IMG/VR virus record: IMGVR_UViG_3300036985_007718
Location: 1 to 27,883 of that record
DNA: 27,883 bases
Origin: a virus
Reading direction: 5' to 3' (one strand)
Shown: positions 71-27,478 of the stretch, one piece after another
Layout of the letters: every line of letters starts with the position of its first letter
Position numbering within the stretch: the first letter of the stretch is position 1
Notes under the pieces: generated by a model
Seen by the model: only the letters and a program-made list of their open reading frames with translations
What the model was told of the DNA's origin: nothing
The model's database searches: none
Program-made: the position numbers and the translations under genes

Positions 71-228
71 AGCATCAGGTGGTTCTAGCAAGAGGTATGT
101 TAGAACTATGCTTGTTGTGGTGAATAAGATCTTGCGTATCTTTAGCCGAGATGAATCTGGCTGGAAATGGAAGGATAACAATTGGCACCTCTATAGAATG
201 TATTTCGTATCATTACACTAGAGGCTAC

Positions 229-999: not shown

Positions 1000-1032
1000 G
1001 ATTGTTCCTTTGGTCTGTCTATCGTTTGTCAT

Positions 1033-1881: not shown

Positions 1882-1906
1882 ACTATCTCCTAGTTTTTAT
1901 TGTTAT

Positions 1907-2425
1907 TTATGCTGGCAGTTTGCTTGGCATTTTCTTTGCAATCATTTGCGTGAATTCATCATCAGATACAGGGGGAGCTGGCTCCATAGATTCTGCTTCA
2001 ATTGGTTCGGCTGCAGATTCGGTTGGGCCTTCCTCTTCTGCTGTTGACAACCAATCTTTGAAATCACGGTTCTTAGAAATATTTGCAAGATTTGCAGCAA
2101 ATATAACAGCTCCGCGATCATCAGTGATTGTGGCTAGATCAGGAACAGGAACGGACACACCAGCTTCGACTGCGTCTTCTGTTGCCTTTGAAACCATAAG
2201 AAGAAGCTTTGTGAATTCAGTTGGGAATTGCTGTGTTGATTCAGTGAAGCTTGGATATTTATCTTTGATTCCAAATAGAGGAGCAACCTTGTTCCATTCA
2301 GTAACGACCTTGTTCAGTGCAGGAACTGTAAAGATAGTCTTTGCCTTTGGTGAAAGGATCTGTGTGCTCTTCTCGTCTTCGATAATCATCTCTTGGGCTT
2401 TAGCGCCAAGCTCGGGGTCCATCAT
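1907..2425 (-). CDS. Hypothetical acidic head-region protein
   Basis: This 172-aa protein has no family I recognise. The first 125 residues look folded and mainly helical, with an ordinary mix of hydrophobic and charged residues. Residues 125-160 are rich in Glu, Pro and Ala and probably disordered, ending in a short KKMPSKLPA tail. Start: AAGGAG lies six bases before the first of two consecutive ATGs. It sits between the zinc-ribbon protein and the probable scaffold, with 10 and 25 bases of spacing, so it is expressed with head-assembly genes. An assembly factor or minor capsid component is a reasonable inference from position only. Confidence 0.78.
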   Translation of the reverse strand: MMDPELGAKAQEMIIEDEKSTQILSPKAKTIFTVPALNKVVTEWNKVAPLFGIKDKYPSFTESTQQFPTEFTKLLLMVSKATEDAVEAGVSVPVPDLATITDDRGAVIFAANLANISKNRDFKDWLSTAEEEGPTESAAEPIEAESMEPAPPVSDDEFTQMIAKKMPSKLPA

Positions 2426-2435
2426 AATAATCTCC

Positions 2436-2870
2436 TTATTGATCTATAGTTGTGTTGCTTGTTTCTCTGGCTTTCTGCATTGATAGAATTGGGTCAGATG
2501 TCTCTTTCATTATCTTGTCATAGTTATCAAGGTAAGAATCAGTAGCTGCATTCCTTGCTTTTTCTTTTTCGAAATGAGAATCCATGAAGGAATCTCCACC
2601 TAGATCTTCAAGATGGATTAGGTTCTTTGCCTTCATGATTGCATCTCTTTCCATGCTATTAGAATAAGAAGCGCCAAGGGCTTTATCATAGTAACCATTA
2701 ACGCCACCAGATCCACTACAATCGCCCCAGCGACCGGAGGTGCGAGCGGGCATGCTAATCATTTTGCGAGAGGGCTGAGAGCATTTAGGACAAGGTAAAG
2801 AATCTTGAGAAGCTGGAACTAAATCTTCAAAGCGGCCATGTTGAGAACATCTAAAATCATATAAGGGCAT
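2436..2870 (-). CDS. FmdB-type zinc-ribbon protein
   Basis: This 144-aa protein begins MPLYDFRC, the signature opening of the FmdB zinc-ribbon family. Four potential zinc ligands are visible: C8 and H11 (CSQH) and C27 and C30 (CPKC). In cellular FmdB proteins the ligands are usually all cysteines, so the CxxH knuckle is a variant. After the ribbon come a Gly/Ser-rich linker (about 45-60) and a charged helical C-terminus. Small FmdB-like ribbons occur in many phage head modules, but their role is unclear. Start: AAGGAG, overlapping the portal stop, nine bases upstream. The context between portal and scaffold suggests a capsid-assembly or DNA/protein-binding role (inference). Confidence 0.7.
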   Translation of the reverse strand: MPLYDFRCSQHGRFEDLVPASQDSLPCPKCSQPSRKMISMPARTSGRWGDCSGSGGVNGYYDKALGASYSNSMERDAIMKAKNLIHLEDLGGDSFMDSHFEKEKARNAATDSYLDNYDKIMKETSDPILSMQKARETSNTTIDQ

Positions 2871-2882
2871 TTATCTATCTCC

Positions 2883-4451
2883 TTAAATTTGCGGTAGTTG
2901 CGCAGGTACTGCAGTCTGTTCCTGCACTGGCTCTTGAACCTTTTGTGGAATCTTGGTTAGAGCATCAGGTAGTTCAAAGAGAGAACCGATTTGGGTTAGA
3001 ATATCCTGTGCAGATATACCAAGGCTTGTAAGGACTGGAATAAGGGACATAAACTGTTGGCGTTTTGCTTCTTGGGCAAGAGGAACAGAGCCCTGGTCAA
3101 CAGCCACAATCTTGAATGACCCATCGAGATCTTCTTGCTTTAAGGTATGAAGATCATTGTCAATAGTTAGAACAGTTTTTGAATCTTCTTCATCTAAGAA
3201 TACCTGAACCAATCTTATGTAAGCTCTTGTGATTTGTTCAATGGCGGCATCACGAACACGAGCCATCTTTCCAATCTCTGAAGATGTATACTGAGCGAGA
3301 GCTGCAATCTCTGTAGCGGTTACATTCGTCGCCATTCCTTTTGCGAATGGCGCTAATACAGAAGCACGCTGTAGATCTTGTTCAACCTGCTGTAGATAAA
3401 TCTGGTGGTTTGATGACATCGGTAAGGAAGGTATTACAGAGAACACCTGAGAAGGCTGTCCCTTATCGATTCCAATGAAGCTATTGTCTAACCCAGCCTC
3501 CAGCTTGGCTAGCGCCTCCTCGTCCAAGGAGCCTTTCGTATAAGCGATTTGGCGGGTATCCCTGCGTATGGATTGGGCCCAGTGTGAACGGATTAGATTC
3601 TTTTCACGGATCTGGTCGTAGATTTTCTTTAAGGTAGAGAATCCTTTGAGGGGTTGTTCTGGTTGTGTACACAGATATAGTGGAGCAATAGGAACTATTG
3701 GCTCCTCATTTTCATCCATGAGAGGAATATCATCTTCTTCAATAATATCGCCATCACGAAGATTTGGAGACCATATGGTACGCTTCCCTAGAGCACGATC
3801 ATAGAATTCCACAATCTTAATAAACTGATATTCTTCAGGAATGGATTCAGTCTTTACTATTTTCGTATCTGTGAAATAATCCTTAAGCTGTTCCGTCTTC
3901 CATTCTTTATTTCCATAAAGCTCTTTTGCTTTTAGGACGGGCATATAGCTGATGTGACCTACCCATCTCTGTGAATCCCAATCAGAGGCAACCATGTCTA
4001 GGATAACCTCCCACGGCTTGAGAGCTATTAGTGAAAATTTGTCAAGCACGTTTGATTTAGTCTTGCCACAAGGTACGATTTTGATGAAGCTCATCGGGAA
4101 TATTAAAGCAAGACGAGCGGCTCGGGTAAACACCTCTTGCTGGTCAAACAGGAATCTATTAGCGATGCCCTCTGCAACCTTGTCATTTCCACTAGACGCC
4201 TTTATATCCTTAACCATTCTAACGGCAGGAGCCTTTGAGAATAGGGATGCAATGTATCCTTCAACGAAGCTATTAGCATCAGCAACCTGAATATCAAGAG
4301 AAGAATCCTTTGATATCCCATCCGCTTTAAAGAAATTGATGTTATAGATATCACGATAACGTGAACAATCGGCTTTTGCGGCTTCCCAATATTCATTATG
4401 AGAAGCAAAGATTGAAGCGATAAGCTGGCTACGGGCTGTTTTGTTTAGCAT
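2883..4451 (-). CDS. Portal protein
   Basis: This 522-aa protein is the likely portal, the dodecameric ring at one capsid vertex through which DNA is packaged and released. Evidence is position (8 bases after the large terminase, the classic order), length, and sequence typical of podovirus/P22-like portals. The helical N-terminus (about 1-60) has YRDIYN. The middle has SIRRDTRQIAYTKGSLDEEAL, then helical stretches with LAPFAKGMATNVTATEIAALA, the ATEI segment being common in portals of this kind. The C-terminus is Gln/Pro/Val-rich (about 500-522) and probably disordered. Start: ATG with AGAGG three bases upstream. No interruption was seen. Confidence 0.85.
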   Translation of the reverse strand: MLNKTARSQLIASIFASHNEYWEAAKADCSRYRDIYNINFFKADGISKDSSLDIQVADANSFVEGYIASLFSKAPAVRMVKDIKASSGNDKVAEGIANRFLFDQQEVFTRAARLALIFPMSFIKIVPCGKTKSNVLDKFSLIALKPWEVILDMVASDWDSQRWVGHISYMPVLKAKELYGNKEWKTEQLKDYFTDTKIVKTESIPEEYQFIKIVEFYDRALGKRTIWSPNLRDGDIIEEDDIPLMDENEEPIVPIAPLYLCTQPEQPLKGFSTLKKIYDQIREKNLIRSHWAQSIRRDTRQIAYTKGSLDEEALAKLEAGLDNSFIGIDKGQPSQVFSVIPSLPMSSNHQIYLQQVEQDLQRASVLAPFAKGMATNVTATEIAALAQYTSSEIGKMARVRDAAIEQITRAYIRLVQVFLDEEDSKTVLTIDNDLHTLKQEDLDGSFKIVAVDQGSVPLAQEAKRQQFMSLIPVLTSLGISAQDILTQIGSLFELPDALTKIPQKVQEPVQEQTAVPAQLPQI

Positions 4452-4458
4452 ATATCCT

Positions 4459-5976
4459 CTAATATTGGCGTGAAATGGGCGCGAACGGGTTGTTACGTTT
4501 TACAGAAGCATGTCTCTTGTTTTCAACTAGGAATTTGTTATAAGCATTTAGTGGTGCTTGTACATCCTTCAGGCATTGCCATGCCAAACCAAGGGAGATA
4601 ACGTTGTCTCCGTGTCCTGTTGCTCCTCTAACAGATTGAGGAGCTAGGCCCTTTTCATTTAGGACAAGGGCCTTTAGTTCTGAGATTGTAATGTAGTCAA
4701 GCTTGGAGATAGATCCTTTTCTTATTGCTTCCTTTAGATCTTCAAACATCATAAGCTTACTAGTTGATGTAGTAATCCAGTTGCCTCCCTCATCATTGGT
4801 CCAGAGATTATGAAATGAAAGATTGCGAAGCTCATTAAGAACTGGAAGACCCCAGTTGTTTTCTTCAATCATTGTTAGGGCATCATTATATTCTACAGAG
4901 ATATGTTGGATCTTCCTTGCAAGAGATGGTGGGGTTATCTCATTCGATCTATAGATGTAGCAAGGATTACCTGTCTTCTTTGATAAAACAGTTATGACGC
5001 TATAATCTTTACCTCTGCCTGATGCAACATCAACACCTATAGCATATTTGTCTTGGGGATCTGGCTCAAAGATTCTGTGGTCTTCTTGGTTTGTAGGTAA
5101 AGAGAATACATCAACGTTCTGAATATCTTCATTACTATAATAGCAATCTCCTTTCTGAGCAAATACGTCATCAAGACAAGCTGGGTATTCTGTATTGAAT
5201 TTGGAGATTCCCATCTCCTGAATCTTTAGACGCCGCCAATAGATCTGATTGTTCGTGAGCCCATATAGTTCTGCCAATCTTTCTTCTTCAACGGTCTTGA
5301 TGAAATCATCAGGAACTGCATGGTAAGAATATTCTTTATGATCTTGCCATGGAAAGAATAGCATCTTCCATTTACCTTGAAGCTCACCCCTCTGAATCTT
5401 ATCAACAAGAGAATGAACAGGATCACCAAAGGATCTGCATGTGCTTTCAATGATAATCTGGTTACCATTTAGTGCAGCAAGAAGGGTGGCCAGAAGCTCT
5501 TCTGGTTGTTCGTAGTAGCAGAATTCGGATACATGTGCAAAAGAGATTGTATAGGAACGTAGCCCACCCTGACCTCCTGCCGTCACTGCATTTACAGATG
5601 CGCCATTCTTGAATTTAAGGCAAGACGATGTTTCCTTAACCAGAGATTTCTGTAGTAGAGAAGGGAGCCCAATATAGAATCCCTTATATTTTAGAAATAT
5701 TTCTGATGCAGAATCCATCTTGTGAAGGACCGACATGCAGGTAATAGGATCCTTGGATACATAAGCCTTCCAAAATGCAAAGGCTGTTGATACAGTTGTA
5801 GATCCTATCTGCCTACATTTAACTACAAGAACATTGTATCCAGCCACAAGATCATCAAGCATAGTTTTTTGTTCATCGTTTAAGACGAGCTTTATCATCT
5901 CACCGGTTTTAGATATAATCCAAAGCCTTGAAATAAATGCATGCGGATCTCCCATGATTGCGTCTAGCGCATTCAT
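4459..5976 (-). CDS. terL: Terminase large subunit (packaging ATPase and nuclease)
   Basis: This 505-aa protein is the DNA-packaging motor. The ATPase half carries a Walker A-like loop at 53-61 (KCRQIGSTT, the KxRQxGxST form common in terminases) and a Walker B/catalytic region at about 143-151 ending in E151 (AHVSEF). The nuclease half has the RNase H-fold acidic residues D316 (GVDVASGRGKDYS), E371 (MIEEN) and D457 (GHGDN). All expected motifs are present and in order, and the length is normal. The start overlaps the stop of the upstream gene by one base (TAATG), so translation is coupled to the probable small subunit. The portal follows 7 bases downstream. Confidence 0.96.
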   Translation of the reverse strand: MNALDAIMGDPHAFISRLWIISKTGEMIKLVLNDEQKTMLDDLVAGYNVLVVKCRQIGSTTVSTAFAFWKAYVSKDPITCMSVLHKMDSASEIFLKYKGFYIGLPSLLQKSLVKETSSCLKFKNGASVNAVTAGGQGGLRSYTISFAHVSEFCYYEQPEELLATLLAALNGNQIIIESTCRSFGDPVHSLVDKIQRGELQGKWKMLFFPWQDHKEYSYHAVPDDFIKTVEEERLAELYGLTNNQIYWRRLKIQEMGISKFNTEYPACLDDVFAQKGDCYYSNEDIQNVDVFSLPTNQEDHRIFEPDPQDKYAIGVDVASGRGKDYSVITVLSKKTGNPCYIYRSNEITPPSLARKIQHISVEYNDALTMIEENNWGLPVLNELRNLSFHNLWTNDEGGNWITTSTSKLMMFEDLKEAIRKGSISKLDYITISELKALVLNEKGLAPQSVRGATGHGDNVISLGLAWQCLKDVQAPLNAYNKFLVENKRHASVKRNNPFAPISRQY

Positions 5977-6317
5977 TATTCCTTCTTCTTAGGGGGCTGA
6001 ATGAAATCAAGGAGCTCATTAAGAAGCTGTTGTCTCTCAACATCAGAGACAGGGCCAGCCGCTTTCTTCATATCGATAAGGAGCTTAGAGAAAGAGGAGA
6101 GCGCTTGCTTCATTTCTCTATCACCTGCTTTAGTATTTTTTAGTTCATAAGCAAATAGCTCAGCAGTAAGCCATAGGGCATCGTCTACATTCTTTGATTC
6201 AAGAGCAGTGATGACCTTGTTACAAATCCGTTCCTTTATGATATCTCTTGTTGGCTTTACGTTACGCTTCTTGGTAGCTGCGTTCTCTTTCAACAGAGCT
6301 TTAGTTTCTTCATCCAT
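5976..6317 (-). CDS. Probable terminase small subunit
   Basis: This 113-aa protein directly precedes the large terminase and overlaps it by one base (TAATG). Small terminases, which recognise phage DNA and load it onto the motor, usually sit here and have this size. Seen: a basic N-terminal stretch (KKRNVKPTRD, about 15-25) that could bind DNA, a helical middle and a Lys-rich end. No clear helix-turn-helix is visible. The call rests mainly on position; the HTH protein just upstream (6317-6727) is an alternative candidate. I start at the ATG at 6317, preceded by GGAGG four bases away and overlapping the previous stop, rather than a longer frame reaching 6404 inside the upstream gene. Confidence 0.55.
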   Translation of the reverse strand: MDEETKALLKENAATKKRNVKPTRDIIKERICNKVITALESKNVDDALWLTAELFAYELKNTKAGDREMKQALSSFSKLLIDMKKAAGPVSDVERQQLLNELLDFIQPPKKKE

Positions 6318-6727
6318 TATCCCTCCAGGTTCATAGCTAGGATAGCTGTTTTTAGTTTGTTCATAGAAGCTTTGTAGATTGTGAATATTGTTTTGTAAGA
6401 ACAACCATGGCTTTCACCCAACGCTCTGAACGTTGCACCCTCCACATAATGAGCATAGAAGATTCTGTATTCTGGATATGTTAGAACGCTTGTGGTTAGT
6501 TCATCGAAATCAAAATCCTTTATTCTCATACCAGAGACAAATAGGCCACAATCTTCTTCACCATCTATGGCCTCATTCATTTTATCCTCGGGGGATTCAA
6601 CGTCGATTAGCGTATCGAGGAACCAATCATTCTCTATCTGAATGTTGTTCTTGCTGAATGATATTTCTTTAGGCATGCCTTCTATTTTTGGGCAATTGCG
6701 GTATTGGGAATCTTTTCTAAAAGCCAT
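6317..6727 (-). CDS. Helix-turn-helix protein, sigma-region-4-like
   Basis: This 136-aa protein has a C-terminal segment (about 83-130) that reads like sigma-factor region 4 or a related HTH: YPEYRIFYAHYVEGATFRAL, then a turn at GCS and a second helix (YKTIFTIYKASMNKL). The pattern of an acidic first helix, EGxTxxxL and a serine-led recognition helix is typical of that fold. The N-terminal 80 residues are acidic and unrecognised. It is coupled by TAATG overlaps to both neighbours, directly upstream of the probable small terminase and large terminase. It could be a late-gene transcription regulator or a DNA-recognition subunit for packaging. The fold assignment is moderately sure; the role is inference. 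Confidence 0.58.
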   Translation of the reverse strand: MAFRKDSQYRNCPKIEGMPKEISFSKNNIQIENDWFLDTLIDVESPEDKMNEAIDGEEDCGLFVSGMRIKDFDFDELTTSVLTYPEYRIFYAHYVEGATFRALGESHGCSYKTIFTIYKASMNKLKTAILAMNLEG

Positions 6728-6954
6728 TATGAAATCTCCTTGAGGGTGAGGTTAAGCGGTTTAAGGTATGCTTGTAGGCATATGTAATAAGAATGAGCGT
6801 GTTGGGAGGGGTGTCTCTGTATGAGGAGGGTATCTCCTTTTAGGCGCACAGTAAAGAGAAGGGAACCATTATGAGATATATCATAATAGGCCCAGCGTCC
6901 TTTCATTACCTTGGATACGGAGAATGGGGTTAGGGTAAGAATATCAGGAAACAT
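6727..6954 (-). CDS. Small hypothetical protein in the packaging operon
   Basis: This 75-aa protein (MFPDILTLTPFSVSK) is unrecognised. The middle, with alternating hydrophobic residues and Gly turns, suggests a small beta-rich fold. It overlaps the end of the nuclease-like gene (about 11 bases) and its stop overlaps the next start (TAATG), so it is a genuine operon member. The start is uncertain: the ATG at 6954 has a weak GGA about nine bases upstream. An ATG at 6963 and a TTG at 6978 are in frame but have no ribosome binding site at a useful distance. Confidence 0.6.
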   Translation of the reverse strand: MFPDILTLTPFSVSKVMKGRWAYYDISHNGSLLFTVRLKGDTLLIQRHPSQHAHSYYICLQAYLKPLNLTLKEIS

Positions 6955-7489
6955 CTTTACCATTCCAAAATGGAGCAAGGTCTATGGTTTTTATCCAGCC
7001 AGCTTCTTTACATTCCCATTTAATTCGGATACCCCATGCACACAAGGTATCTCCTGGTCTTTGACCAACACCTTTGCCTGCTGGGCATTGATTAGCAATA
7101 TGAGAATCAACCCATTTCCGAAGCTTAGGAACGTGATACACATATGCTTTCATCGTTGACCGATTACATTCAATCAGATAATCGAGAGATTCAGCAATGC
7201 GCCAATCTGTTGGTTTGTTTTGTTCATGATCAGCATATGTCTCAAGCAGAAAGGTATCGTACATTCTGTGACCAGATACATCTGTGCCCCTATTTGTCTT
7301 CATCTCTACTGAATATATATCATCGGCATGAGATGTAAAAAAGATTTCAAGATCATAACGCTTGTTGTTTAGACCTGGTAGCTCTTTGATCTTTGCTGTG
7401 CCTTCTTGCTTGTAGAAGGCTTTAAGAGCATCGATGGCCCTTGTGTGTTTTGCGTTTTCTGCATCAAAAGATTCTGGAATGTAATTCAT
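6944..7489 (-). CDS. Putative PD-(D/E)XK-type nuclease
   Basis: This 181-aa protein has an arrangement typical of the PD-(D/E)XK nuclease fold: an N-terminal helix (about 8-28), a strand with an aspartate (D46, KRYDLEI), then a strand ending VEMK (E62, K64) followed by TNRGTD. An aspartate about 16 residues before an ExK is the hallmark of these metal-dependent DNA nucleases. The later segment GWRI/CNRSTMKAYVYHVPKL is unrecognised. The exact family is not known to me and the motif alone can mislead. It is the first gene after the strong promoter at 7510-7539 and leads the run into the terminase genes, so a role in DNA processing before packaging is a fair guess. Start: ATG with GAGG about five bases upstream. 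Confidence 0.5.
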   Translation of the reverse strand: MNYIPESFDAENAKHTRAIDALKAFYKQEGTAKIKELPGLNNKRYDLEIFFTSHADDIYSVEMKTNRGTDVSGHRMYDTFLLETYADHEQNKPTDWRIAESLDYLIECNRSTMKAYVYHVPKLRKWVDSHIANQCPAGKGVGQRPGDTLCAWGIRIKWECKEAGWIKTIDLAPFWNGKDVS

Positions 7490-7509
7490 AGTGACCTCTG
7501 CCTCTTATG

Positions 7510-7539
7510 ATTATATTACCAGATTGGTTCTTTTGTCAA
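7510..7539 (-). promoter_or_regulatory. Strong sigma70-like promoter for the packaging operon
   Basis: On the minus strand: TTGACA (7534-7539), an 18-base spacer, then TATAAT (7510-7515), both perfect consensus hexamers. It lies in the 67-base gap between the membrane-protein gene (ends 7557) and the nuclease-like gene (starts 7489), so the packaging run can be transcribed separately. The spacer contains AATCTGGTA, also present in the promoter at 27505-27532. Confidence 0.75.
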
Positions 7540-7556
7540 CCTTCTGTGTTGATTTT

Positions 7557-7859
7557 TTAGAACCTTTCTTTTATGATTTGGATGTTAAGCCTGACATCTG
7601 TTAGGTCTTCTTCGAAACGATCTTGTCTTTTTGAGAGACCAAGGATTGCTGATTCAAAGGCTTTGCGGTCTTCCTTATGCTCTTCCATTATATTTTCAAG
7701 GTTCTCTTGATTTTGTTTCAAATATGATTTGAGAATGGGGAATGCGTGACTAGTTATCATCTTATATATAGCTCCTAAGACTAGAAGCAAAACAATGACT
7801 GCACCACCTGGCCCTACAGCTATCTCAAAAAAAGAAATGATAATAGGAACGATTTCCAT
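7557..7859 (-). CDS. Membrane protein with cytoplasmic coiled coil, holin- or spanin-like candidate
   Basis: This 100-aa protein has one long hydrophobic segment (about 4-33, including AVIVLLLVLGAIY) followed by a charged helical region (about 45-97) rich in Glu, Lys and Gln with coiled-coil spacing. That layout, a short membrane anchor and long charged tail, resembles small phage lysis proteins, and in T7-type gene order a holin sits between the tail/internal-protein genes and the terminase. No family signature was recognised, so holin is only a candidate; a membrane-anchored accessory protein is also possible. The start overlaps the previous stop (TAATG). The promoter at 7510-7539 lies just downstream. 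Confidence 0.5.
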   Translation of the reverse strand: MEIVPIIISFFEIAVGPGGAVIVLLLVLGAIYKMITSHAFPILKSYLKQNQENLENIMEEHKEDRKAFESAILGLSKRQDRFEEDLTDVRLNIQIIKERF

Positions 7860-8122
7860 TATGGATTCCAGCCCTTATCTTTGCGCATCCATTCTGCTTT
7901 TAGCATTTCCATAAGAGCCATGTCCTTAAAGAAATCAGGACGATAAGCAGGTTCATCAGCAATATGAGCAGCCATTGCCTTGTTTGCAAACCAAAGACAT
8001 TGTCTTACAGTATAGGAATCTGTGCCAAGGGTTTCAATGACTGGTGCATTCTCTGCTTTTGTATCAGGGGATAATGAAAGAATCTCTTCTGATTCGTTTT
8101 GTTTTTCTAGTTCGTCTGACAT
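7859..8122 (-). CDS. Small hypothetical protein
   Basis: This 87-aa protein has an acidic, probably disordered first half (MSDELEKQNESEEIL to about 35) and a helical second half with RQCLWFANKAMAAHIADEPA, ending in a basic KKDKGWNP-like stretch. No family is recognised. Start: ATG with AAGGA about six bases upstream. Its stop overlaps the start of the membrane protein (TAATG), so the two are probably made in matched amounts. It might be a virion-associated or lysis-accessory protein, but nothing shows it directly. Confidence 0.68.
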   Translation of the reverse strand: MSDELEKQNESEEILSLSPDTKAENAPVIETLGTDSYTVRQCLWFANKAMAAHIADEPAYRPDFFKDMALMEMLKAEWMRKDKGWNP

Positions 8123-8131
8123 TTTTATTCC

Positions 8132-8737
8132 TTATGTATCCATTGAGATTTGAAGATTGGGAGGTTGTGTCCCATCACCGAGGACAGTACCCACATAGGT
8201 ATTTCCTGTTGTGATAATGCCTGCTGTGTTTGTTTGAAGGATAGAACCATCTTTCATACCAACTAATAGGCGTGAAAGCTGTGGCTGGGTTGTAGCCATA
8301 TTGGTACGAACACCCGCCCACAAATGGGTTCCAGCAGGAACTACATATCCTGCCCCTGCATTAAAAGCAGTTGTGTTTCTTTTTGTACCAGTTGTCAAAA
8401 GCGTATCTAGCGTACCTGAAGATGTCAAACAGGTAAGGGTTTGTCCTGCTTTATTGGGAGACGTGGGAGATGAGAATAGACCAACCTCTGCCGTCTGTGC
8501 TCCTAAAGCCACAACACCACAATACATCTCAACATGTTTACACGTTACAGCGCGTACTGTGTATCCACAATAAACCATTATAAGCTGATCAGCTGTCATA
8601 ATGTTTGAGCCAGCGTCATCTGCCCACATTGATCTGAAGCGTCTTTGCGAGCCTGGAGGAGCTACGTTAAGCCATCCCAAAGCATCAGCAACAGCTGCTG
8701 GTGCAATATTAGTAATTACGTGTGTTGGGTGTACCAT
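8132..8737 (-). CDS. Hypothetical beta-rich virion protein
   Basis: This 201-aa protein is rich in Thr, Gly and Ala, with alternating hydrophobic stretches suggesting a beta-sandwich, for example VVALGAQTAEVGLFSS and VVPAGTHLWAGVRTN. No enzyme motif is seen. It follows the largest internal virion protein and a second small beta-rich gene, a region where T7-like phages encode tail fibres, so a fibre or decoration protein is plausible (inference). Start: ATG with AAGGA about ten bases upstream; the adjacent gene ends 12 bases before. Confidence 0.65.
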   Translation of the reverse strand: MVHPTHVITNIAPAAVADALGWLNVAPPGSQRRFRSMWADDAGSNIMTADQLIMVYCGYTVRAVTCKHVEMYCGVVALGAQTAEVGLFSSPTSPNKAGQTLTCLTSSGTLDTLLTTGTKRNTTAFNAGAGYVVPAGTHLWAGVRTNMATTQPQLSRLLVGMKDGSILQTNTAGIITTGNTYVGTVLGDGTQPPNLQISMDT

Positions 8738-8749
8738 TGTTTTTGTTCC

Positions 8750-9115
8750 TTAGTAAACTGAAACTACGACTGCGTATGAGAAAGCATTGTCTGCGCCAGC
8801 GTTTGGAGCGCAGCGGAGATAAAGATTCCCAAGGAGATCTGTTGAGGTTAAGCCTTCTATGGCAGTGTCATCTGTTTGGGTAGCAACTGGAACAGATGTT
8901 GCAAGATATTTCTCAGCAGAGGTGCCAGTTGTAAAGCTACCCACATTGCCAATAGCTGGTTGATAGGTTGTCGCTGTTCCAGATATACGATTGACCATAA
9001 CGCGATCTATACGTACCATTCTCTTAACGTCACCAATGCGGAGAATAATCTCGGTAGCCGTTGCCTGATTGGTAACGTTTGCCGCTAGCTCCATTGGTTT
9101 TGGTAAAGCATTCAT
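8750..9115 (-). CDS. Small hypothetical beta-rich virion protein
   Basis: This 121-aa protein begins MNALPKPMELAANVTNQATA and has alternating Val/Ile/Thr stretches and many small residues, without recognisable motifs; it resembles small decoration or fibre-tip proteins in composition only. I chose the ATG at 9115 because AAGGAG is then seven bases upstream; an ATG two codons earlier (9121) would leave it almost touching. It comes just after the giant ejection protein in transcription order and before the 201-aa beta-rich protein; the two may work together. Confidence 0.65.
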   Translation of the reverse strand: MNALPKPMELAANVTNQATATEIILRIGDVKRMVRIDRVMVNRISGTATTYQPAIGNVGSFTTGTSAEKYLATSVPVATQTDDTAIEGLTSTDLLGNLYLRCAPNAGADNAFSYAVVVSVY

Positions 9116-9126
9116 AAACATTCTCC

Positions 9127-12100
9127 TTAATTCGTTGACCTTGTTTTATTATCGACCCCAAGCGTTTCTAGTTTATAGTTTTCGTCTTGGGTTTTTTTGG
9201 TATAGATTTCCGTAGGGCTATCAATACGAATGTCAGTTGTTACACCTAGCTGTTCCCATGGAGATGTAGTTAAATCTATTCCCTTTTCGGTAACATCAGC
9301 TGGGTTTATCATAACTGCAAGAGGCGCAAAATCTTTTAGAATGGTATCACCACCAATCGTTGATGAAACAACCCAGTTCTTGAAGAACCAATAACCATCT
9401 GCCATCTTTTCAATAACGTTTCCACCATTATCTTTCATGGAATATTTCATGCCACCCCATGAAGGTTCTCCTGGTTTTGCAGGATCTCTTCTGAGCTGGC
9501 CAAACAGGGCTTCGAAATTATCAAACGTACCTGTTGCTTTCATCCAAGCGATGTCTCTCGGATCGATGTAGCCCTGGTCATAAACCATTTTCTTTGTGGT
9601 TTGATTTCCACCTGTTACTGCTTTTAGCAATGGATCCATGCGGTCTGTTTGTAAGCTGAAAGCTTGGGATAGTTCCCTATTCCACAAAGCAAAGAATACC
9701 TTGGATAATAAGAATACAGAATCAGCTACAGGCATACCCGGTAGATAAGACGCATACCTCTCCTTATCAACACCATCGATAATCTTCCAGAGCGGACGTG
9801 ATTGCGTGTATTCTTTTTCATAAAGGTCTTTGGTCTTGCGATCATGTTCACCCCACACATATCCTTTCGTTAGTTTCATTTGATTTGCTAAACGTGTTGG
9901 ATTCTCAACGAGATTAGTTAGAACATTGATGGCTGCCGCTCTTTGAAACGAATAGAACGCCATCCAGGAATTGATGTATTTCTTTTCGAAATCAGACATC
10001 TTCCCATAATCGAACAGAGCTTCTCTTGCTTTCTGTAGAGCCTGTGAAACGTCTTCTCCTTTCTTAAGAGAATCGATAAGCACAGAAGATCTAAATGCTC
10101 CATCAGACCATTCAGCGAAAGCACTAGTTGCATCAACAATATTGCCGATAGCATTATCAACAGAAGGAATCAGGTTCTTAGATTTCATGTTTTCAATGAG
10201 ACCCTTCTGCAAGAATGCTTTGTTAGCTTTGCTGACAGCTTCCTGTGCAGAAGATAGCCCCTTCTGAGATTTGAGGATGCCGCCTGTACTAACAATATCA
10301 GCAAGGTCTCTATATGTATATGCCCGGCCAGCCACATCTACAAAGGCAACTGCATTTAATCTTGAATCTTGTAGTATAGTTGTCTTGCGAAGAAGGTCAC
10401 CACCCATCGTATCACTAGATAAGGCCGATAGCCATGCTCCTTGCATCCAATTCTTTGGCTTCATTGCTGATGCGGTGGCTTCACCACCTATGGTTGACAT
10501 CATAATAAAGGGGGCAGTCAGGAAATTCATGCCATGGAAACGAGGACGTAGGTTTAACATGAACGTGTATTTAGTGTTGCGTAAGGTACCTATTGCATCT
10601 GAGATACGGCCAAGAACACGAGCCGCTGTATTTGCATCTCTCTTCGCAAGGTCCTTAAAATATTCCTTGAATTTAGAAGCATCGAAAGAATCGCCAACTA
10701 TTTTCTTGATAGTCTCAACTGTCTTTACATCTCCAAGAATAGGATCAATCTTTCTTGTTCCATTGGAGATACCTTCAAGCCATTCAACATAATCTCCAGC
10801 ATCAGCCTTGGCCATGCCATAGTTATCTATAACATCGAATGCTAGATTGTCAATAGCCTCCATGAATCGAGGACCATCTTTAGATTTCATTATGCTTGAG
10901 AAGGCCCAGCCAAGGTCCTGGCCTTGTCTGTCCATAAAATCTTGAAGGACATTTATATAGTCTTTCTCTTCTCCTGCATTGACAGAAACGATATGAGCAG
11001 TCCTTGCTCCTATAATCGTCCTTATCTGCTCATCGGTGAGAACAGTGTGTTTGTCGATTGCAGTTCGGAGGGATTTACTAAGAGAAGGTTTATCAAGGTC
11101 CATCAATCCAATAAGATTGTATTCGAGGATCTTATCTTTCTCTGCATTAAAATAGATTGCGGATAGAAGCTCTTCAATACGGTCAGGAGAGATGGGTGCA
11201 AACCCTTCCTTTACATAGGGTGTTCCTATCTTATTGACATCTACAATATATTGCTTTACAATATTTACTGCATCCTCATTTGTTAGAGCTTCTTCTAATC
11301 TGACAGTAAGATCTTCAGTAAGGGAATCTAGTTTGCTGTTTAATGTAGGGATGCGCTCAAGGTAGCTCTTTAGATTTATGTTGATTGGGCGGAACCAATC
11401 AGATAGAGAGGCCCTTATCGGAAGATTGTGTATAGCTAGATCACGTACGTTATTAGCCACAATTTTAGCTGATGTCTTTCTTCTAAATGCTTCTTCCAGC
11501 ATTGAATGGGAAAGAGGAGGGGCCTTAGAAAATGCACGCTTGGGATGTTGGAAGATAAGAGCAAGCATTGCCTCTCTCTCGGTAATCTTTCCTTCTAATC
11601 CATAAGCTTTTGCAACAGCAGGGTCATTGATGATTTCCTGAATCTTTATTCTTAGCGTCTTCTCCATCGAGGACATCTCTTGCTGAATATTATTCAGAAT
11701 CTTCTGAGCATTTGCGGAGATTGGAGAATCAACCTTATTAAACTGAGCTGCTCTTTCTTTCAGAAATTTCCTGACAAGACCCTCACGTAGAACTATTGGC
11801 TTTAGCAATTCATTCTGAGCTTTAGCATCCATCTTGGAGATTGTGGATTCGCCTATTGAAGAAATCTTTCCAGCTGTACGAACACGAGCAACCTCATCAA
11901 TCTGTAGACCAACGAGCTTTCTTGCAGTTTGGGTAGAAACAGTTCCGCTTAGAACCTCTTGAAGCATATTTTCTAAAGGAATATTCTGCATACGCGCATC
12001 GTTTAGATGCATGCGAATCCAGTCGGCAACAATCTCCTTACCCTCATCGGAAAGAACAACCTTAGAGGTTGTGGCTCCACCAGATATAACACGCTTAGAA

Positions 12101-14433
12101 CCTGATATTGATTTAAGCTCAGCATCTTCAATAGCTTTTGCTTCATTTATTACAACAGATACAGGCGTCTTTGCTGCGTCTGCAAGGATCTTATTTCCCA
12201 TTGCCCTTGATGAGACTGCAGTCTTATCAGTTAGAAGGAAGAATCTTCCAGCCGAAGGGTCCGATGAAAAGACATGCGCAAGAGCATGTTCATCTGCAAT
12301 GGCTTTAGTAAAAGCAGCACGGCCTTCTTTTGTTTCCATTATCTTTGTAACAATATTTCTTAGGCCCTTAACGTTGGATCCTTTTAAAAGATCTGCAAGG
12401 TCAGGAGATGAGGAGAGAGCAGTCTTTGCCCACCTAGTGATATCCTCAACGCCTTCTTTGGTAGAACGTTGAAGGATTCCGGCAGCGCTTTTCTCAGAAC
12501 CAGAGAAAGCACGATCACCGATATCAATATATTTTTTTGTTAGAGCGACTGAATCATCTAAGCTCTTAACAATACCTTCCGCAATGCCATCTTCCAAGCG
12601 CTTTGCGTAGACAAGAATGTCTTCGCCTTTGTTAGAAGCAGCGAGGGCTTCTTTGTATACAGAAGATTCTTTGCCTATGGATGTCTCAAGCTTTTGTAGA
12701 ATCTTTTGGTTACGCAAAGCAACAGCGCCTTCTCCAGCCCGTTCATAATCGCCAGCAATATTCATTGCCCAGTTTGCTTCTTTGGCAGCATCATCAATAG
12801 CCTTAGCTCCGACAGATGCATCAGCTAGTTTTGTAGCAACCAGTAAGCGCATATCAATTGGACCTGTTCCAAGAGCTTGGATTACATGTTCGCCAACAGA
12901 AAGCTTATTTGCTCTTGATAATCCAGCTAAAGCTTTCTCCGCTGCATAAGCTTCTTTTGTAGCAGTACCTATTTTGCCAACAAGACCTGCACCTGGGACA
13001 ATGGGAACTGCGATAATATCAGTTGCTAATCCGCTAAGATATGTTAGATCTTTTATTATAGGCTTGAGAGAATCTGCCCCTGGAATCTTATTAAATAAAT
13101 CTGATTCGGTTACAGCGCCCGCAAGATCATAAGCCTCTTCTGCAATAGCTCTGTTCTTAGCTACGTTGTCAAGGGCATGTGTGACGGTTCTATCGTACCA
13201 GGACATTGAATCGGATACATCAGCTGCTCCGGATTTCTTCCTTTCTTCAAGAAAAGAATCACTAATATTCGAAGGCAAAGCTTCAGCAATACCGCCATAT
13301 ATACCTCCTATAACTGCATTAGCAGGAGCAGCAATCATTCTTGCTACGTAAGCAGGGTCTGATTCAATAGTAGCGCCTGATGGATATTTGTGTACACCAA
13401 ACCCAAGCATGCCTTCAAATTCAGGTGCCCGAGAAAGCATTTGCTTTTTCATCTCTGGATCTTGCCACCATTGTGGTTGTCCTAAGATATCATTTACGAA
13501 TACGCCCGATTCTGCGGTTGATGAAAGATCATCCAATCCGCCTTTTTGCAGTTGATCTTTCTTGCGTAGTCTTAGGTTCTTTCTTAATAGACGCAGGTAT
13601 TCGGAACCAGCTTCTGAAATCTCTGGGATGGTTGAACCAGTTTGTGAATGGCCGAATATGCTATTAGCTTCAAGCTCTTCATCAGAAGCGCCGGCTAGAA
13701 CCTTAGCCCCATTACCTGACATATCCTTGCTTAAGCTAGTTAAAACATTCCAGATTTCTTTTGCCTGAGCATCAGATGAGAGAGATGAGAATCCTTCCTT
13801 ATTCTTAGAAAGATAATCTCTTAATCCCTTAACAGCATCCTTACCTGCATCTGCTATGATAGAATCATCAACTGCTTTTTGGTATTCAACCTTTGGCTTA
13901 TATGTAAGATTCCCTTTCTCATCCATAATATCTGGAACGGATACCTGTCTATCAAGAACCGAAGACACTGGTGGTGCCTCTAAATAAAGGTTTTGTCTTT
14001 CTCTTGGAACTGCCGAGCTTTCTCTTTTGCTTTCAGAATAAATGTCAGCACCAAGAAGATCTCTCGATAGAGCTGCTCTTTTATTGTCATATGAATCTAG
14101 CCAGGTCTCAACCTTAATGGGCTGATAGTCAGGGTTGGCCGCCGCCTCTTCATCATCAATTCTTAGTACAGACTGGAGCGCACCAAGCTTAGCCTTCTGT
14201 TCTAATGGAGCTGTCTTGATGGATTCCGTTATTGCTGGGGAAACCAAGGATGATTTTGTTTCAAGCCCTGGTGTTAAATGTGAACGTACAAGCCTTAACG
14301 CATCGAATCTTTTATCAGATGTGTCCCTTCTCATATCTTCCGTAACTAGCTTTGGGTCAAACCCATCACCTATAAGAAGCTGATCTTCGGCCCTTCTGAT
14401 TTGCTCTTCAGAATATATATAAGGTGTCGCCAT
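9127..14433 (-). CDS. Giant internal virion (ejection) protein, T7 gp16-like
   Basis: At 1768 aa this is the largest gene here. Composition is mainly helical, rich in Ala, Lys, Glu and Asp. There are hydrophobic glycine-rich patches at about 363-387 (ANAVIGGIYGGIAEAL), 465-490 (LATDIIAVPIVPGAGLVGKI) and near 1300 (NFLTAPFIMMSTIGGEA) that could insert into membranes. It is the last of three consecutive ejection-type genes, matching the order and increasing size of T7 gp14, gp15 and gp16, which leave the head and form a channel across the Gram-negative envelope. No lytic transglycosylase motif was found at the N-terminus, unlike T7 gp16. Start: ATG with GAGGAG five bases upstream. The frame is intact. 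Function rests on position, size and composition. Confidence 0.7.
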   Translation of the reverse strand: MATPYIYSEEQIRRAEDQLLIGDGFDPKLVTEDMRRDTSDKRFDALRLVRSHLTPGLETKSSLVSPAITESIKTAPLEQKAKLGALQSVLRIDDEEAAANPDYQPIKVETWLDSYDNKRAALSRDLLGADIYSESKRESSAVPRERQNLYLEAPPVSSVLDRQVSVPDIMDEKGNLTYKPKVEYQKAVDDSIIADAGKDAVKGLRDYLSKNKEGFSSLSSDAQAKEIWNVLTSLSKDMSGNGAKVLAGASDEELEANSIFGHSQTGSTIPEISEAGSEYLRLLRKNLRLRKKDQLQKGGLDDLSSTAESGVFVNDILGQPQWWQDPEMKKQMLSRAPEFEGMLGFGVHKYPSGATIESDPAYVARMIAAPANAVIGGIYGGIAEALPSNISDSFLEERKKSGAADVSDSMSWYDRTVTHALDNVAKNRAIAEEAYDLAGAVTESDLFNKIPGADSLKPIIKDLTYLSGLATDIIAVPIVPGAGLVGKIGTATKEAYAAEKALAGLSRANKLSVGEHVIQALGTGPIDMRLLVATKLADASVGAKAIDDAAKEANWAMNIAGDYERAGEGAVALRNQKILQKLETSIGKESSVYKEALAASNKGEDILVYAKRLEDGIAEGIVKSLDDSVALTKKYIDIGDRAFSGSEKSAAGILQRSTKEGVEDITRWAKTALSSSPDLADLLKGSNVKGLRNIVTKIMETKEGRAAFTKAIADEHALAHVFSSDPSAGRFFLLTDKTAVSSRAMGNKILADAAKTPVSVVINEAKAIEDAELKSISGSKRVISGGATTSKVVLSDEGKEIVADWIRMHLNDARMQNIPLENMLQEVLSGTVSTQTARKLVGLQIDEVARVRTAGKISSIGESTISKMDAKAQNELLKPIVLREGLVRKFLKERAAQFNKVDSPISANAQKILNNIQQEMSSMEKTLRIKIQEIINDPAVAKAYGLEGKITEREAMLALIFQHPKRAFSKAPPLSHSMLEEAFRRKTSAKIVANNVRDLAIHNLPIRASLSDWFRPININLKSYLERIPTLNSKLDSLTEDLTVRLEEALTNEDAVNIVKQYIVDVNKIGTPYVKEGFAPISPDRIEELLSAIYFNAEKDKILEYNLIGLMDLDKPSLSKSLRTAIDKHTVLTDEQIRTIIGARTAHIVSVNAGEEKDYINVLQDFMDRQGQDLGWAFSSIMKSKDGPRFMEAIDNLAFDVIDNYGMAKADAGDYVEWLEGISNGTRKIDPILGDVKTVETIKKIVGDSFDASKFKEYFKDLAKRDANTAARVLGRISDAIGTLRNTKYTFMLNLRPRFHGMNFLTAPFIMMSTIGGEATASAMKPKNWMQGAWLSALSSDTMGGDLLRKTTILQDSRLNAVAFVDVAGRAYTYRDLADIVSTGGILKSQKGLSSAQEAVSKANKAFLQKGLIENMKSKNLIPSVDNAIGNIVDATSAFAEWSDGAFRSSVLIDSLKKGEDVSQALQKAREALFDYGKMSDFEKKYINSWMAFYSFQRAAAINVLTNLVENPTRLANQMKLTKGYVWGEHDRKTKDLYEKEYTQSRPLWKIIDGVDKERYASYLPGMPVADSVFLLSKVFFALWNRELSQAFSLQTDRMDPLLKAVTGGNQTTKKMVYDQGYIDPRDIAWMKATGTFDNFEALFGQLRRDPAKPGEPSWGGMKYSMKDNGGNVIEKMADGYWFFKNWVVSSTIGGDTILKDFAPLAVMINPADVTEKGIDLTTSPWEQLGVTTDIRIDSPTEIYTKKTQDENYKLETLGVDNKTRSTN

Positions 14434-24462: not shown

Positions 24463-24490
24463 TTGTTACCTTAATATGGTAATATATTTT
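24463..24490 (+). promoter_or_regulatory. Possible promoter/operator for the plus-strand island
   Basis: TTGTTA (24463-24468), a 16-base spacer and TATTTT (24485-24490) give a weak sigma70-like promoter 22 bases before the endonuclease VII start. An inverted repeat TTACC-N7-GGTAA (24466-24482) overlaps the spacer, a typical repressor site position. In the rest of the 176-base gap 24336-24511 I see a 6-bp inverted repeat (CCTAAA/TTTAGG) and no convincing minus-strand promoter for the capsid gene. Confidence 0.35.
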
Positions 24491-24511
24491 CATAAGATTA
24501 ACGAGGATTCA

Positions 24512-24916
24512 ATGAAGACGTGCACAAAATGTGAAGAAGAAAAGGACAGCCTTTCTTTCTATGCTAACCGGAACCTATGCAAGATATGCATGAATAGAAG
24601 ATCTGCCGAACATGCTTCCAAGAATAAGGAGGCAACTGCGACACATAAACGCGTCTCATCTTTTAAGATCAAATATGGAATAACTATTTCGGAATATGAT
24701 TTATTGTTCAAGGAACAAGAAGGAGCTTGCGCTATCTGTAAGACACATCAATCAACACAACCGATTGCTTTGGCTGTGGACCATTGCCATACTACAGGCA
24801 AGGTAAGAGGTCTTCTATGTGGTAAATGTAATAGAGGCATTGGACTATTCGAAGACCGTGAAGATATTCTAGTATCGGCAATTCATTATTTAAAGGAGAG
24901 GAAAGATGTCAACTGA
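24512..24916 (+). CDS. Recombination endonuclease VII-like protein
   Basis: This 134-aa nuclease matches the endonuclease VII family, which cuts Holliday junctions and branched DNA and clears DNA for packaging. Seen: an N-terminal zinc ribbon (C4/C7 and C23/C26), then the core, with C73/C76 (CAIC) and C103/C106 (CGKC) as zinc ligands around the DHCH-TTGKVRGLLC catalytic segment (D90, H91, H93; N107). I chose the ATG at 24512, with GAGG five bases upstream, over one at 24476 that lacks a binding site. The last 11 bases overlap the endolysin gene, so the two are co-expressed. Together with RusA, the phage has two different junction nucleases. Confidence 0.86.
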   Translation: MKTCTKCEEEKDSLSFYANRNLCKICMNRRSAEHASKNKEATATHKRVSSFKIKYGITISEYDLLFKEQEGACAICKTHQSTQPIALAVDHCHTTGKVRGLLCGKCNRGIGLFEDREDILVSAIHYLKERKDVN

Positions 24917-25421
24917 TTTTGAGAAAGCATTAGGTTTAGTATTACGCTATGAAGGTGGCTATGTCAATAACCCAGCAGATAGGGGTGGTGCTACGAACAA
25001 AGGTATAACACAGAAGACCTATGATAACTATCGGATAAAAGCTAGGAGACCTGTTCTCTCTGTTAAAGAGATAGAAGATGGGGAGGTATCCACCATCTAC
25101 TATATGAACTACTGGTGTGAATCTTCCTGTGATAAGATTCCATCACCGCTTAGTATTCTTGTGTTTGATTTTGCTGTTAATAGTGGACCATCAAGAGCAA
25201 TCAAATATCTTCAGCGTTTACTGAATCTAAAGGATGATGGTATCGTTGGACCTAAGACCCTTGCTGCTGTTGGAGCTGTAGAAGATTTACAAGATTTCTG
25301 CTCTGACTATCTTGATCTTCGCGATGATCTGTTTGCGGGTATAGTTGCCCATGATTCTACCCAAAAGATATTCCTTAAGGGATGGTTAGCCCGAACCAAA
25401 TCCTTAAGATCCATTATATAG
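24906..25421 (+). CDS. GH108 endolysin (peptidoglycan muramidase)
   Basis: This 171-aa protein belongs to glycoside hydrolase family 108. Seen: the N-terminal active-site motif with catalytic E16 (YEGGYVNNPADRGGATNKGI), and a C-terminal peptidoglycan-binding module (about 81-122: FDFAVNSGPSRAIKYLQ, DDGIVGPKTL). It cleaves the sugar backbone of the cell wall to release progeny. No signal peptide or membrane segment is seen, so export probably needs a holin, for which the 51-aa membrane protein just beyond the terminator is a candidate. Start: ATG with AGGAGAGG just upstream, overlapping the previous gene by 11 bases. Length is normal for the family. Confidence 0.92.
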   Translation: MSTDFEKALGLVLRYEGGYVNNPADRGGATNKGITQKTYDNYRIKARRPVLSVKEIEDGEVSTIYYMNYWCESSCDKIPSPLSILVFDFAVNSGPSRAIKYLQRLLNLKDDGIVGPKTLAAVGAVEDLQDFCSDYLDLRDDLFAGIVAHDSTQKIFLKGWLARTKSLRSII

Positions 25422-25682: not shown

Positions 25683-25964
25683 TTATTCCTTTTGTGCGGA
25701 GCGATATCTCTGTTGCGATGCGCGATGCCGAGCACGGTGCTCGTCCGTCCATGGTACCTTGCGGCCGTCCGGTGCATGTAGAATGTTGAGAATCTTTTTG
25801 GAGGTCAGGGAAGGATCCAAGGTTGGCAGGATTTCCTCTGCCTTTATGGCCCACTGATGAGCCTCCTCCTCGGAGGGAAAGCAACCCAACCAGGTGACAG
25901 CGGCATCCACATAAATGAAGGCGCGCCATCTTCCTTTAGATTTATCGAAGCAAGCTCCTCTCAT
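25683..25964 (-). CDS. AP2/ERF-like DNA-binding protein
   Basis: This 93-aa protein carries an AP2-like domain at about 3-45: three strands with FDKSKGRWRAFIYVDAAVTW, LGCF, then a helix EEEAHQWAIKAEE. Such domains bind DNA and in phages often come with homing endonucleases or integrases; here it stands alone. The C-terminus (about 60-93) is Arg/Gln-rich (TDEHRARHRASQQRYRSAQKE-like), perhaps a second DNA-binding segment. The gene is visibly richer in G and C than its neighbours, suggesting recent acquisition. The start overlaps the previous stop (ATGA) with no clear ribosome binding site, so it depends on coupling. Could be a truncated homing endonuclease, but no HNH residues remain. Confidence 0.68.
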   Translation of the reverse strand: MRGACFDKSKGRWRAFIYVDAAVTWLGCFPSEEEAHQWAIKAEEILPTLDPSLTSKKILNILHAPDGRKVPWTDEHRARHRASQQRYRSAQKE

Positions 25965-26284
25965 TGTTGGTCAAACACTAGAGGAGCAAGGCTATCTGTT
26001 CCATTCCAAGCGGCATAGAATTCATAGTCATCTATCAGCTTGTTATGGGCTCTGAATAGTTCTCTATCTACAACCTTCCCAGTCTCAAGAAGAAGATCTC
26101 CGTTCTCGTCAATTGCCATTATCATTCTGATCTCATCAACAATATATGTATGTGTACATATAGGATTAAGAAAACATGATTGGGACATCTGCCTTATCTC
26201 CTGAACCCATACGTAATCTCCGAACGTAAGAGGAAATGATCCCTCATCATCACCAACATAAGATCCTTTGTAAGAGCCCATCAT
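25961..26284 (-). CDS. Hypothetical protein coupled to the polymerase gene
   Basis: This 107-aa protein is unrecognised. Near the start are many Gly/Asp/Ser residues (GSYKGSYVGDDEGSF), then a beta-strand-rich middle (FGDYVWVQEIRQ, HTYIVDEIRMIMAID) and a final Asp/Tyr-rich segment. The start codon overlaps the polymerase stop by one base (TAATG), with a second ATG directly after, and no good ribosome binding site, so it is probably translated by coupling. Linkage to the polymerase suggests a replication accessory role (inference from position). Confidence 0.65.
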   Translation of the reverse strand: MMGSYKGSYVGDDEGSFPLTFGDYVWVQEIRQMSQSCFLNPICTHTYIVDEIRMIMAIDENGDLLLETGKVVDRELFRAHNKLIDDYEFYAAWNGTDSLAPLVFDQQ

Positions 26285-27453
26285 TAGTTCACACCATAAT
26301 ATTTCTGAGAAAGCTTTAGTCCTGCGTGGATTTCATATTTGCTTTTTAAGAAGGCATCGATGCATCTTTCAAGCCGGGAAATCTCCCCTTCAGTTACTGT
26401 CCCTTCAACGTGAAATCCGTCAAAGAGAAGACAAGAAACTGTGCGTCCATTGTAATCACACCAGCCCTCACATATAGAAAGGATTTCGTCTTCTATTGAT
26501 TGGATGAATAGAGCAAGACCTCTATTATCATTGGCGATATTAAAATCCTTCGCTTCTGGTAGGGCTAGAAGGGTCTTCTTTGCATGGACAAGCTCTTCTT
26601 TGTAAGCTACTAGGAAAGGATGATGAACTAGTTTATTGTCAACGATGGTTAGTGTTGCGCGAGAATCAGTTAGCCAACCTCTCATGGCGTCTTCGCTGTA
26701 GGAAAGGGAAGCACCGTAGTTGATCATAATCATCAAGGTCTTTGCAGCCTTTCTATCTACCTTGTAGTAATCCATGAGCTGGGCTAGAACACCTTCACGA
26801 TTAGAAATGTATTCGTTCATGTGGTACATGTCTGCATCCTCATCTGCCTTCGCCATAAGAGAAAGGATGATGGTAGGATGAGCGTTGACCATATCAATGT
26901 CTGTTACATCTTCCATGATATAGCGTCTGATATATCCGGGTAAACCCTGAAGAGAAATAGAGGATGCGAATCTCCTGCCTTTCGCTCCTGATGTGCGGCG
27001 ATAAGAAACCATATTGATTCCATCTGCATCACAGGCCTTGCGGTAAAGGCGGGCTGACATCCGGTCCTCTATGTTATGGCAATAGGTCTCATCTGCAATT
27101 ACATGATCTAGCTTGGCTATGTTAACCTTCTCTGCATAATAAACAACACCTACCTTAAGCTTACGAGGAGCTGCTGGTTTATCAAGCAGCTCGTCAATGA
27201 TTCTGTAAAAAGCCTTGGTGGGCTGATATGCTTTACAAACACCCTTGCTCCATTCAGTTGGAGGGTAGTACCGTGAATCTGTTTCAATAAAAAGAAGGTC
27301 AGTAGCTGCCCGGTAGTTGTCACCGAATACGGTCTGAAGCTCAGCTGCCTTCAGCCAGAAAGAACCTTTAACGTTAGTGTGGTCCATCTTCCCGCGTAGA
27401 ATCTTTGCGAAGGTTGATGCGATCCAGTTTTCTTGTTGCTCTGTAAATGTCAT
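26284..27453 (-). CDS. TV-Pol-like family A superfamily palm polymerase
   Basis: This 389-aa protein carries the three polymerase motifs in order. Motif A is at 185-193 (DIDMVNAHP, D187 probably catalytic). Motif B is at 234-247 (R-x3-K-x3-I-x3-YG), exactly the spacing of the PolA O-helix and of T7 RNA polymerase. Motif C is at 344-348 (FDGFH, D345). Between B and C, N310 to Q318 with acidic residues (IQSIEDEIL) resembles the N..IQ stretch of PolA. Before motif A, GRRFASSISLQGLPGYIRR resembles the TV-Pol group described by Iyer, Abhiman and Aravind, known mostly from transposons and viruses. No 3'-5' exonuclease or helicase domain is present. It could be a primase, polymerase or primer-extension enzyme. 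Start: ATG with AAGGA eight bases upstream. Confidence 0.7.
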   Translation of the reverse strand: MTFTEQQENWIASTFAKILRGKMDHTNVKGSFWLKAAELQTVFGDNYRAATDLLFIETDSRYYPPTEWSKGVCKAYQPTKAFYRIIDELLDKPAAPRKLKVGVVYYAEKVNIAKLDHVIADETYCHNIEDRMSARLYRKACDADGINMVSYRRTSGAKGRRFASSISLQGLPGYIRRYIMEDVTDIDMVNAHPTIILSLMAKADEDADMYHMNEYISNREGVLAQLMDYYKVDRKAAKTLMIMINYGASLSYSEDAMRGWLTDSRATLTIVDNKLVHHPFLVAYKEELVHAKKTLLALPEAKDFNIANDNRGLALFIQSIEDEILSICEGWCDYNGRTVSCLLFDGFHVEGTVTEGEISRLERCIDAFLKSKYEIHAGLKLSQKYYGVN

Positions 27454-27478
27454 GATGTTATTCCTTTGGTTGTTGTAC

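Follow-up and report, generated by a model that had tools for sequence, protein, structure and literature searches.

DNA polymerase I excludes ribonucleotides by means of two residues: E710, at position +5 of motif A, and F762, four residues after the lysine of the O-helix. Polymerases of the TV-Pol kind, to which the replication protein of Sputnik and Zamilon belongs (PMC2579912), are nuclease-free and reduced to a minimal family-A core, with an invariant, template-contacting arginine in a beta-hairpin, two aspartates in the palm and an RxxxK motif in the fingers. Phages, plasmids and transposon-like elements all encode such enzymes, and a TV-Pol element was described in Microcystis phage Ma-LMM01 by Iyer et al. 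2008 (PMC2579912). As of 2020, the sole biochemically characterised member was CCPol (PMC7581432), which in the CCPol-MP primase of SCCmec acts as a primase-polymerase (PMC7581432, PMC10061031). CCPol extends primers, and makes them de novo together with MP; it keeps the glutamate and the phenylalanine at the two discriminating positions, and favours dNTPs (PMC7581432). MP, a partner that binds single-stranded DNA and is needed for priming, is encoded just after CCPol. A second group, divPolA2, consists of small stand-alone phage proteins with palm and fingers and without exonuclease (PMC11348598).

Here we describe a phage protein of 389 amino acids, P0001. The sequence comparisons below identify it as a divergent polymerase core of the family-A type, and of the TV-Pol kind. 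A preliminary description of the locus called this type of enzyme little-studied, which it is, but stand-alone divergent PolA-like phage enzymes, divPolA1 and divPolA2, had already been published (PMC11348598). The window that we analysed is the complete record, 27,883 bases long, of a tailed phage; it has no end repeat, and is thus probably a genome fragment. Terminase, portal, capsid and further virion genes are leftward in the window, endonuclease VII and a GH108 lysozyme (24476-25421) rightward; the left end bears RusA, and the right end the polymerase gene row. A search for sister phages based on the terminase gave distant phages only, and not a single viral contig. Since the contig is a fragment, the remaining replication system of the phage is out of sight: in the vicinity of the polymerase, neither a helicase gene nor any other gene for replication can be seen, and no D5-like helicase, recombinase or transposase, to which the polymerase is linked in some relatives, was recognised among the scanned proteins of the window. 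The window also contains, on the minus strand, an ORF of 1768 amino acids (9127-14433), without confident match in Pfam or PHROGs, that probably encodes a large virion or ejection protein.

The polymerase gene has 389 codons and runs on the minus strand, from an ATG at 27453 to a TAA at 26284-26286: both the interval and the length had been given correctly before, and the strand is now added to them. A ribosome-binding site, AAGGA (27462-27466, minus strand), stands 8 nt 5' of the ATG. A possible sigma-70-like promoter, TTGACC-16-TATGAT with an extended -10 (27532-27505, minus strand), lies some 50 nt 5' of the start codon and matches the consensus at 10 of 12 positions. This well-placed site is a plausible promoter in a region without excess of such sites, where 11 are observed versus 8.5 +/- 2.7 in shuffles, a count not above chance; of the strong promoter once proposed for the gene, the site is retained and the strength is not. 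The position at the head of an operon is borne out, since the 430 nt or so that separate the gene from the end of the contig contain no sizeable co-directional ORF, and the start codon of the following gene shares a base with the stop codon of the polymerase in the sequence TAATG. This next gene is an ORF of 107 amino acids (25961-26284, minus strand) of no known family, for which family searches gave no match, and which is not evidently conserved beside the polymerase genes of the relatives. It is a candidate partner of the polymerase, by an analogy, positional only, with the SCCmec gene that directly follows CCPol and encodes MP; unlike in CCPol-MP, the neighbour has no demonstrated OB fold, and no Cch-type helicase is seen in the fragment. 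Third in the overlapping row is an ORF of 93 amino acids (25683-25964, minus strand) with an AP2 domain (Pfam AP2, E=5e-4; phrog_99, E=1e-8) of the type present in HNH homing endonucleases. This short ORF is without the HNH part, and overlaps the 107-aa ORF.

Relatives of P0001 were recovered through tblastn in phages and plasmids, and then through later profiles; viral and genome contigs, scanned with single proteins or with early alignments, yielded none. In Desulfovibrio phage 7757/SRB7757, tblastn detects a protein of 767 amino acids (E=1e-4). A protein of 538 amino acids in the Polaromonas plasmid pW9NP1, whose gene is located just before RepA, was at first a weak lead; the two proteins are mutually linked at E=2e-9, and a second Polaromonas plasmid, pH8NP1, carries another relative. 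These three proteins are the nearest sequence relatives, and have their motif set in common with P0001. Compared to it, the Desulfovibrio phage and Polaromonas plasmid proteins are longer, about 20-26% identical, and have H-D-G at motif C; the phage polymerase has a C-terminal extension, unlike P0001. Profiles added a circular Rhodoferax plasmid, more Pseudomonadota genomes and three IMG/VR contigs, L016, L017 and L029; at E<=0.001, 6 of the 399 sampled genomes are matched, 2 of them weakly. The family thus resides in small plasmids, mini-phages and one Desulfovibrio phage: in the small plasmids its genes adjoin RepA or ParA, and the phage-like circles of about 11 kb also carry ParA or a recombinase. 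Two of the plasmid members coexist with a RepA initiator, so that the role of initiator does not have to fall to the polymerase in these plasmids (PMC6015842). The product of MW202692 that is annotated as "DNA directed DNA polymerase" was rejected, as its sequence reads as a DnaB/RecA-type ATPase.

The motifs of P0001 are, in this order, G159-R160, D187-MVNAHP, R234-x3-K238-x3-I242-x3-Y246-G247, Q318..E321 and F344-D345-G346. Motifs A, B and C and the Q..E motif are as the preliminary description read them, and their presence is not due to chance: the whole set is collinear with that of 12 relatives, in which the G-R pair, the aspartate of motif A, the lysine and the Asp-Gly of motif C are near-invariant. 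R160 (26974-26976; this and all the following positions on the minus strand) is the template-contacting arginine of the hairpin, equivalent to R429 of T7 DNAP and invariant in 13 of 13 members. The catalytic aspartates D187 of motif A (26893-26895) and D345 of motif C (26419-26421), both kept in all members, align by hhalign with D475 and D654 of T7 gp5. The spacing of motif B, or O-helix (26713-26754), equals that of R518, K522, Y526 and Y530 in T7 DNAP; R234 is present, while most relatives retain just the lysine of RxxxK. The Q318..E321 motif (26491-26502) corresponds to the region of Q849 in Pol I. At motif C, F344 occupies the position of a histidine that is near-invariant in the relatives, giving F-D-G for H-D-G.

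Membership in the family was assessed by exclusion: a profile made from nine relatives, with P0001 omitted, was run on the 119 stop-to-stop frames of the window, and P0001 is the sole match. Its core scores an i-E of 2.8e-18, and its N-terminal domain (residues about 3-92, positions 27178-27447, minus strand) an i-E of 7e-4. This domain is common to the plasmid and phage relatives, and our guess is that it has winged-helix character. With hhalign, P0001 matches the family built without it at E=1.9e-16 over residues 6-351; the thumb, palm and fingers core (residues 101-389, positions 26287-27153, minus strand) does so at 2.8e-16, and the N-terminal 100 residues alone not significantly (E=0.046). 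The family matches four phage PolAs at E=8.7e-8, with a probability of 94% and with the hairpin and motifs A, B, Q and C in order; P0001 alone matches PolA at 9.3e-6, and its core at 5.8e-6. Decoys, namely reversed PolA, terminase and capsid, score 0.1 or worse, and T7 RNA polymerase, at 0.19-0.57, is at decoy level. Of the kinships that a profile comparison had been proposed to check, the one with PolA is thus found, and the one with T7 RNA polymerase is not. As already stated in the preliminary description, P0001 has no recognisable exonuclease or helicase domain, for which its 389 amino acids leave scant space. It has no match in Pfam, in NCBIfam or among PDB sequences. Searches of PDB sequences with the family profiles A3 and A9 gave chance hits only; nanobody, TetR and acyl-carrier hits obtained in such searches were taken as noise.

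Structure prediction gives an answer for a relative. AlphaFold2 applied to P0001, with a shallow alignment, yielded no usable fold (pLDDT 42.8), and the model was discarded; applied to the core of the L016 polymerase, it yielded a model with pLDDT 79.5 and pTM 0.78. That D187 and D345 meet in a palm, as the preliminary description anticipated, is therefore predicted solely by way of the L016 protein, which is about 20% identical to P0001. Among PDB structures, Foldseek places Klenow on top for the L016 model (E=1.3e-8), followed by KlenTaq, Aquifex Pol I and Pol theta, with T7 DNAP also present; all 22 matches with E<=1e-3 are PolA-type. The best matches in BFVD are unnamed phage proteins of 400-550 amino acids and, among named entries, the replication proteins of Pyramimonas orientalis virus, Zamilon virophage and Qinghai Lake virophage rank above most DNA polymerase I entries. 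In the L016 model, helices 25-43 and 57-77 precede the hairpin, where TV-Pols have a bi-helical thumb; the model of P0001 is not reliable there.

The TV-Pol-like kinship proposed earlier agrees with these fold matches, and also with a profile link to Ma-LMM01. The family profile, built without P0001 and without the Desulfovibrio phage, matches gp030 of this phage at E=1.8e-4 in its genome, and the pH8NP1 protein matches phrog_34692, the PHROG of gp030, at 1.1e-5; P0001 alone is not significant against gp030 (E=0.24), and its link is by transitivity only. Because gp030 adjoins an IS605-like transposase pair, we take it to be the TV-Pol published for Ma-LMM01, and thus probably one of the original TV-Pols. 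P0001 has the traits of the kind, with its pair of palm aspartates, its hairpin arginine R160, its RxxxK fingers and no fused nuclease. Unlike TV-Pols, it has F-D-G at motif C; within this fragment of the genome, a D5 helicase is neither fused to it nor seen nearby, and no recombinase is found.

The best PHROG match of P0001 is, however, of a different group: phrog_4756, whose function is given as unknown in PHROGs, is matched at E=2.2e-7 over residues 156-267, and AUR84708, a divPolA2 protein described by Yutin et al. 2024, hits this PHROG at E=1.8e-91, so that phrog_4756 is divPolA2 (PMC11348598). Phages with divPolA2 carry PolB too, and an accessory or repair role was proposed for divPolA2 of barbaviruses (PMC11348598). 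P0001 could likewise be an accessory or repair polymerase, additional to a standard replicative polymerase whose gene lies off the contig, and the short row that its gene forms with an AP2-domain ORF, in place of a visible replication cluster, is in line with this. We nevertheless hold this reading to be unlikely, if still worth keeping in mind. P0001 fits an eight-member divPolA2 profile at 2.6e-5 by hhalign, much more weakly than the plasmid and mini-phage set at 1.9e-16, and no second polymerase is seen for the phage in its contig, which is a fragment. In a tree of 23 cores, divPolA2 (100/99) and PolA (98/94) each form a clade of their own, and P0001 joins the TV-Pol-like set (88/75, 90% of bootstraps), a position that is not firm because P0001, with 1.72 changes per site, and the Desulfovibrio phage have long branches. 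Given the profile E-values and the tree, we call P0001 TV-Pol-like, related to divPolA2 but outside it: besides forming its own clade, divPolA2 proper has another N-terminal domain, and Glu or His at D+5. Classical PolA, such as Pol I and T7 gp5, was also rejected, since P0001 is outside that clade, has a core that starts near residue 100, and is without 3'-5' exonuclease domain.

The two positions by which Pol I excludes ribonucleotides set the family apart from CCPol. In P0001, H192 (26878-26880, minus strand) occupies the ribose steric-gate position, that of Pol I E710 and T7 DNAP E480, and I242 that of F762. Across the 13 members, motif A +5 is His in 10 and otherwise Gln, Asn or Val, and never Glu; the residue four after the O-helix lysine is Leu, Ile, Thr or His, and never the discriminating aromatic residue. 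As H192 and I242 replace the discriminating residues, P0001 may select sugars loosely. Going further, one could see in it a single-subunit RNA polymerase or RNA primase, in which the two replacements permit NTPs and lead to transcripts or RNA primers. T7 RNAP itself has G542 and M635 at the two positions, and the weaker fold matches of L016 include RNA polymerases (8dh1 at E=1.1e-3, T7-type at about 1e-3 and weaker, mitochondrial ones at 0.007 and weaker). We consider this improbable: the sequence-profile match to T7 RNAP is at decoy level, which led us to reject a T7-like RNA polymerase; a T7-type promoter-binding N-terminal domain is absent at this size; and CCPol, although of a different subgroup, keeps both residues and prefers dNTPs (PMC7581432). 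Equally speculative is the idea that the TV-Pol-like subgroup of plasmids and phages, with His and an aliphatic residue in place of E710 and F762, would be a self-starting, ribonucleotide-using primase, here with the translationally coupled 107-aa protein. If true, it would add a third, family-A-derived type of primase, making RNA or mixed primers.

The reading that we retain, and hold to be reasonably probable, is that P0001 is a minimal polymerase of the TV-Pol kind that would use single-stranded phage DNA as template for nucleic acid synthesis, and would initiate or elongate primers when the phage replicates. The N-terminal domain would be followed by a thumb, a template-gripping hairpin, a palm holding the metals with D187 and D345, and fingers with the R-K-Y O-helix; R160 and Q318 would contact the template, and R234 and K238 bind the triphosphate. 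Since all those residues are present, we infer, by comparison with family-A enzymes, a two-metal nucleotidyl transfer on a single-stranded template. Other replication proteins would come from the host, or from phage genes that lie past the ends of the contig. That P0001 is instead a decayed or non-catalytic relative, DNA-binding or regulatory only, is very improbable in spite of the F for H at motif C and the long branch, as R160, D187, R234, K238, Y246, Q318 and D345 are all retained, including an O-helix arginine that most relatives have lost, in an intact reading frame with a good ribosome-binding site.

From its sequence, then, P0001 probably serves in replication or in the making of primers, and is probably a divergent addition to the known TV-Pol kind, not a separate kind. 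A compact stand-alone phage member, with full catalytic residues in a family that has lost its sugar-discrimination residues, makes ribonucleotide use and RNA priming testable, and would let one test whether family-A cores prime alone, and with which nucleotides. In the absence of a matching Pfam or NCBIfam model, members of the subgroup are annotated "hypothetical protein", and the family alignment would let replication modules of plasmids and phages be recognised. The pH8NP1 protein (L004:4926-6431, WP_181374945) even bears the RefSeq name "Clp protease N-terminal domain-containing protein", a label that looks wrong, the Clp_N match being sub-threshold and located inside the polymerase fingers.

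Two of the contigs found with the profiles deserve mention. L017 (IMGVR_UViG_3300034072_002137, 1-11098) is 11 kb long, has a terminal repeat of 127 bp and is probably circular; it encodes a tape measure protein, a serine recombinase and a polymerase of P0001's family, and neither a terminase nor a capsid gene was recognised in it. L016 (IMGVR_UViG_3300020048_001266, 1-10864) is 10.8 kb long and probably circular, given its terminal repeat of 55 bp. It has genes for TerL, connectors, ParA, the TV-Pol-like polymerase, capsid, protease and portal, and none for a tail; it is possibly a capsid-forming satellite, or a mini phage-plasmid. On the side of divPolA2, the hypothetical proteins QVW00637 and ADX88373 of isolates of Vibrio phage ICP1 (L033:601-1905 and L039:53-1714) match phrog_4756: the cholera phage ICP1 thus carries a divPolA2.
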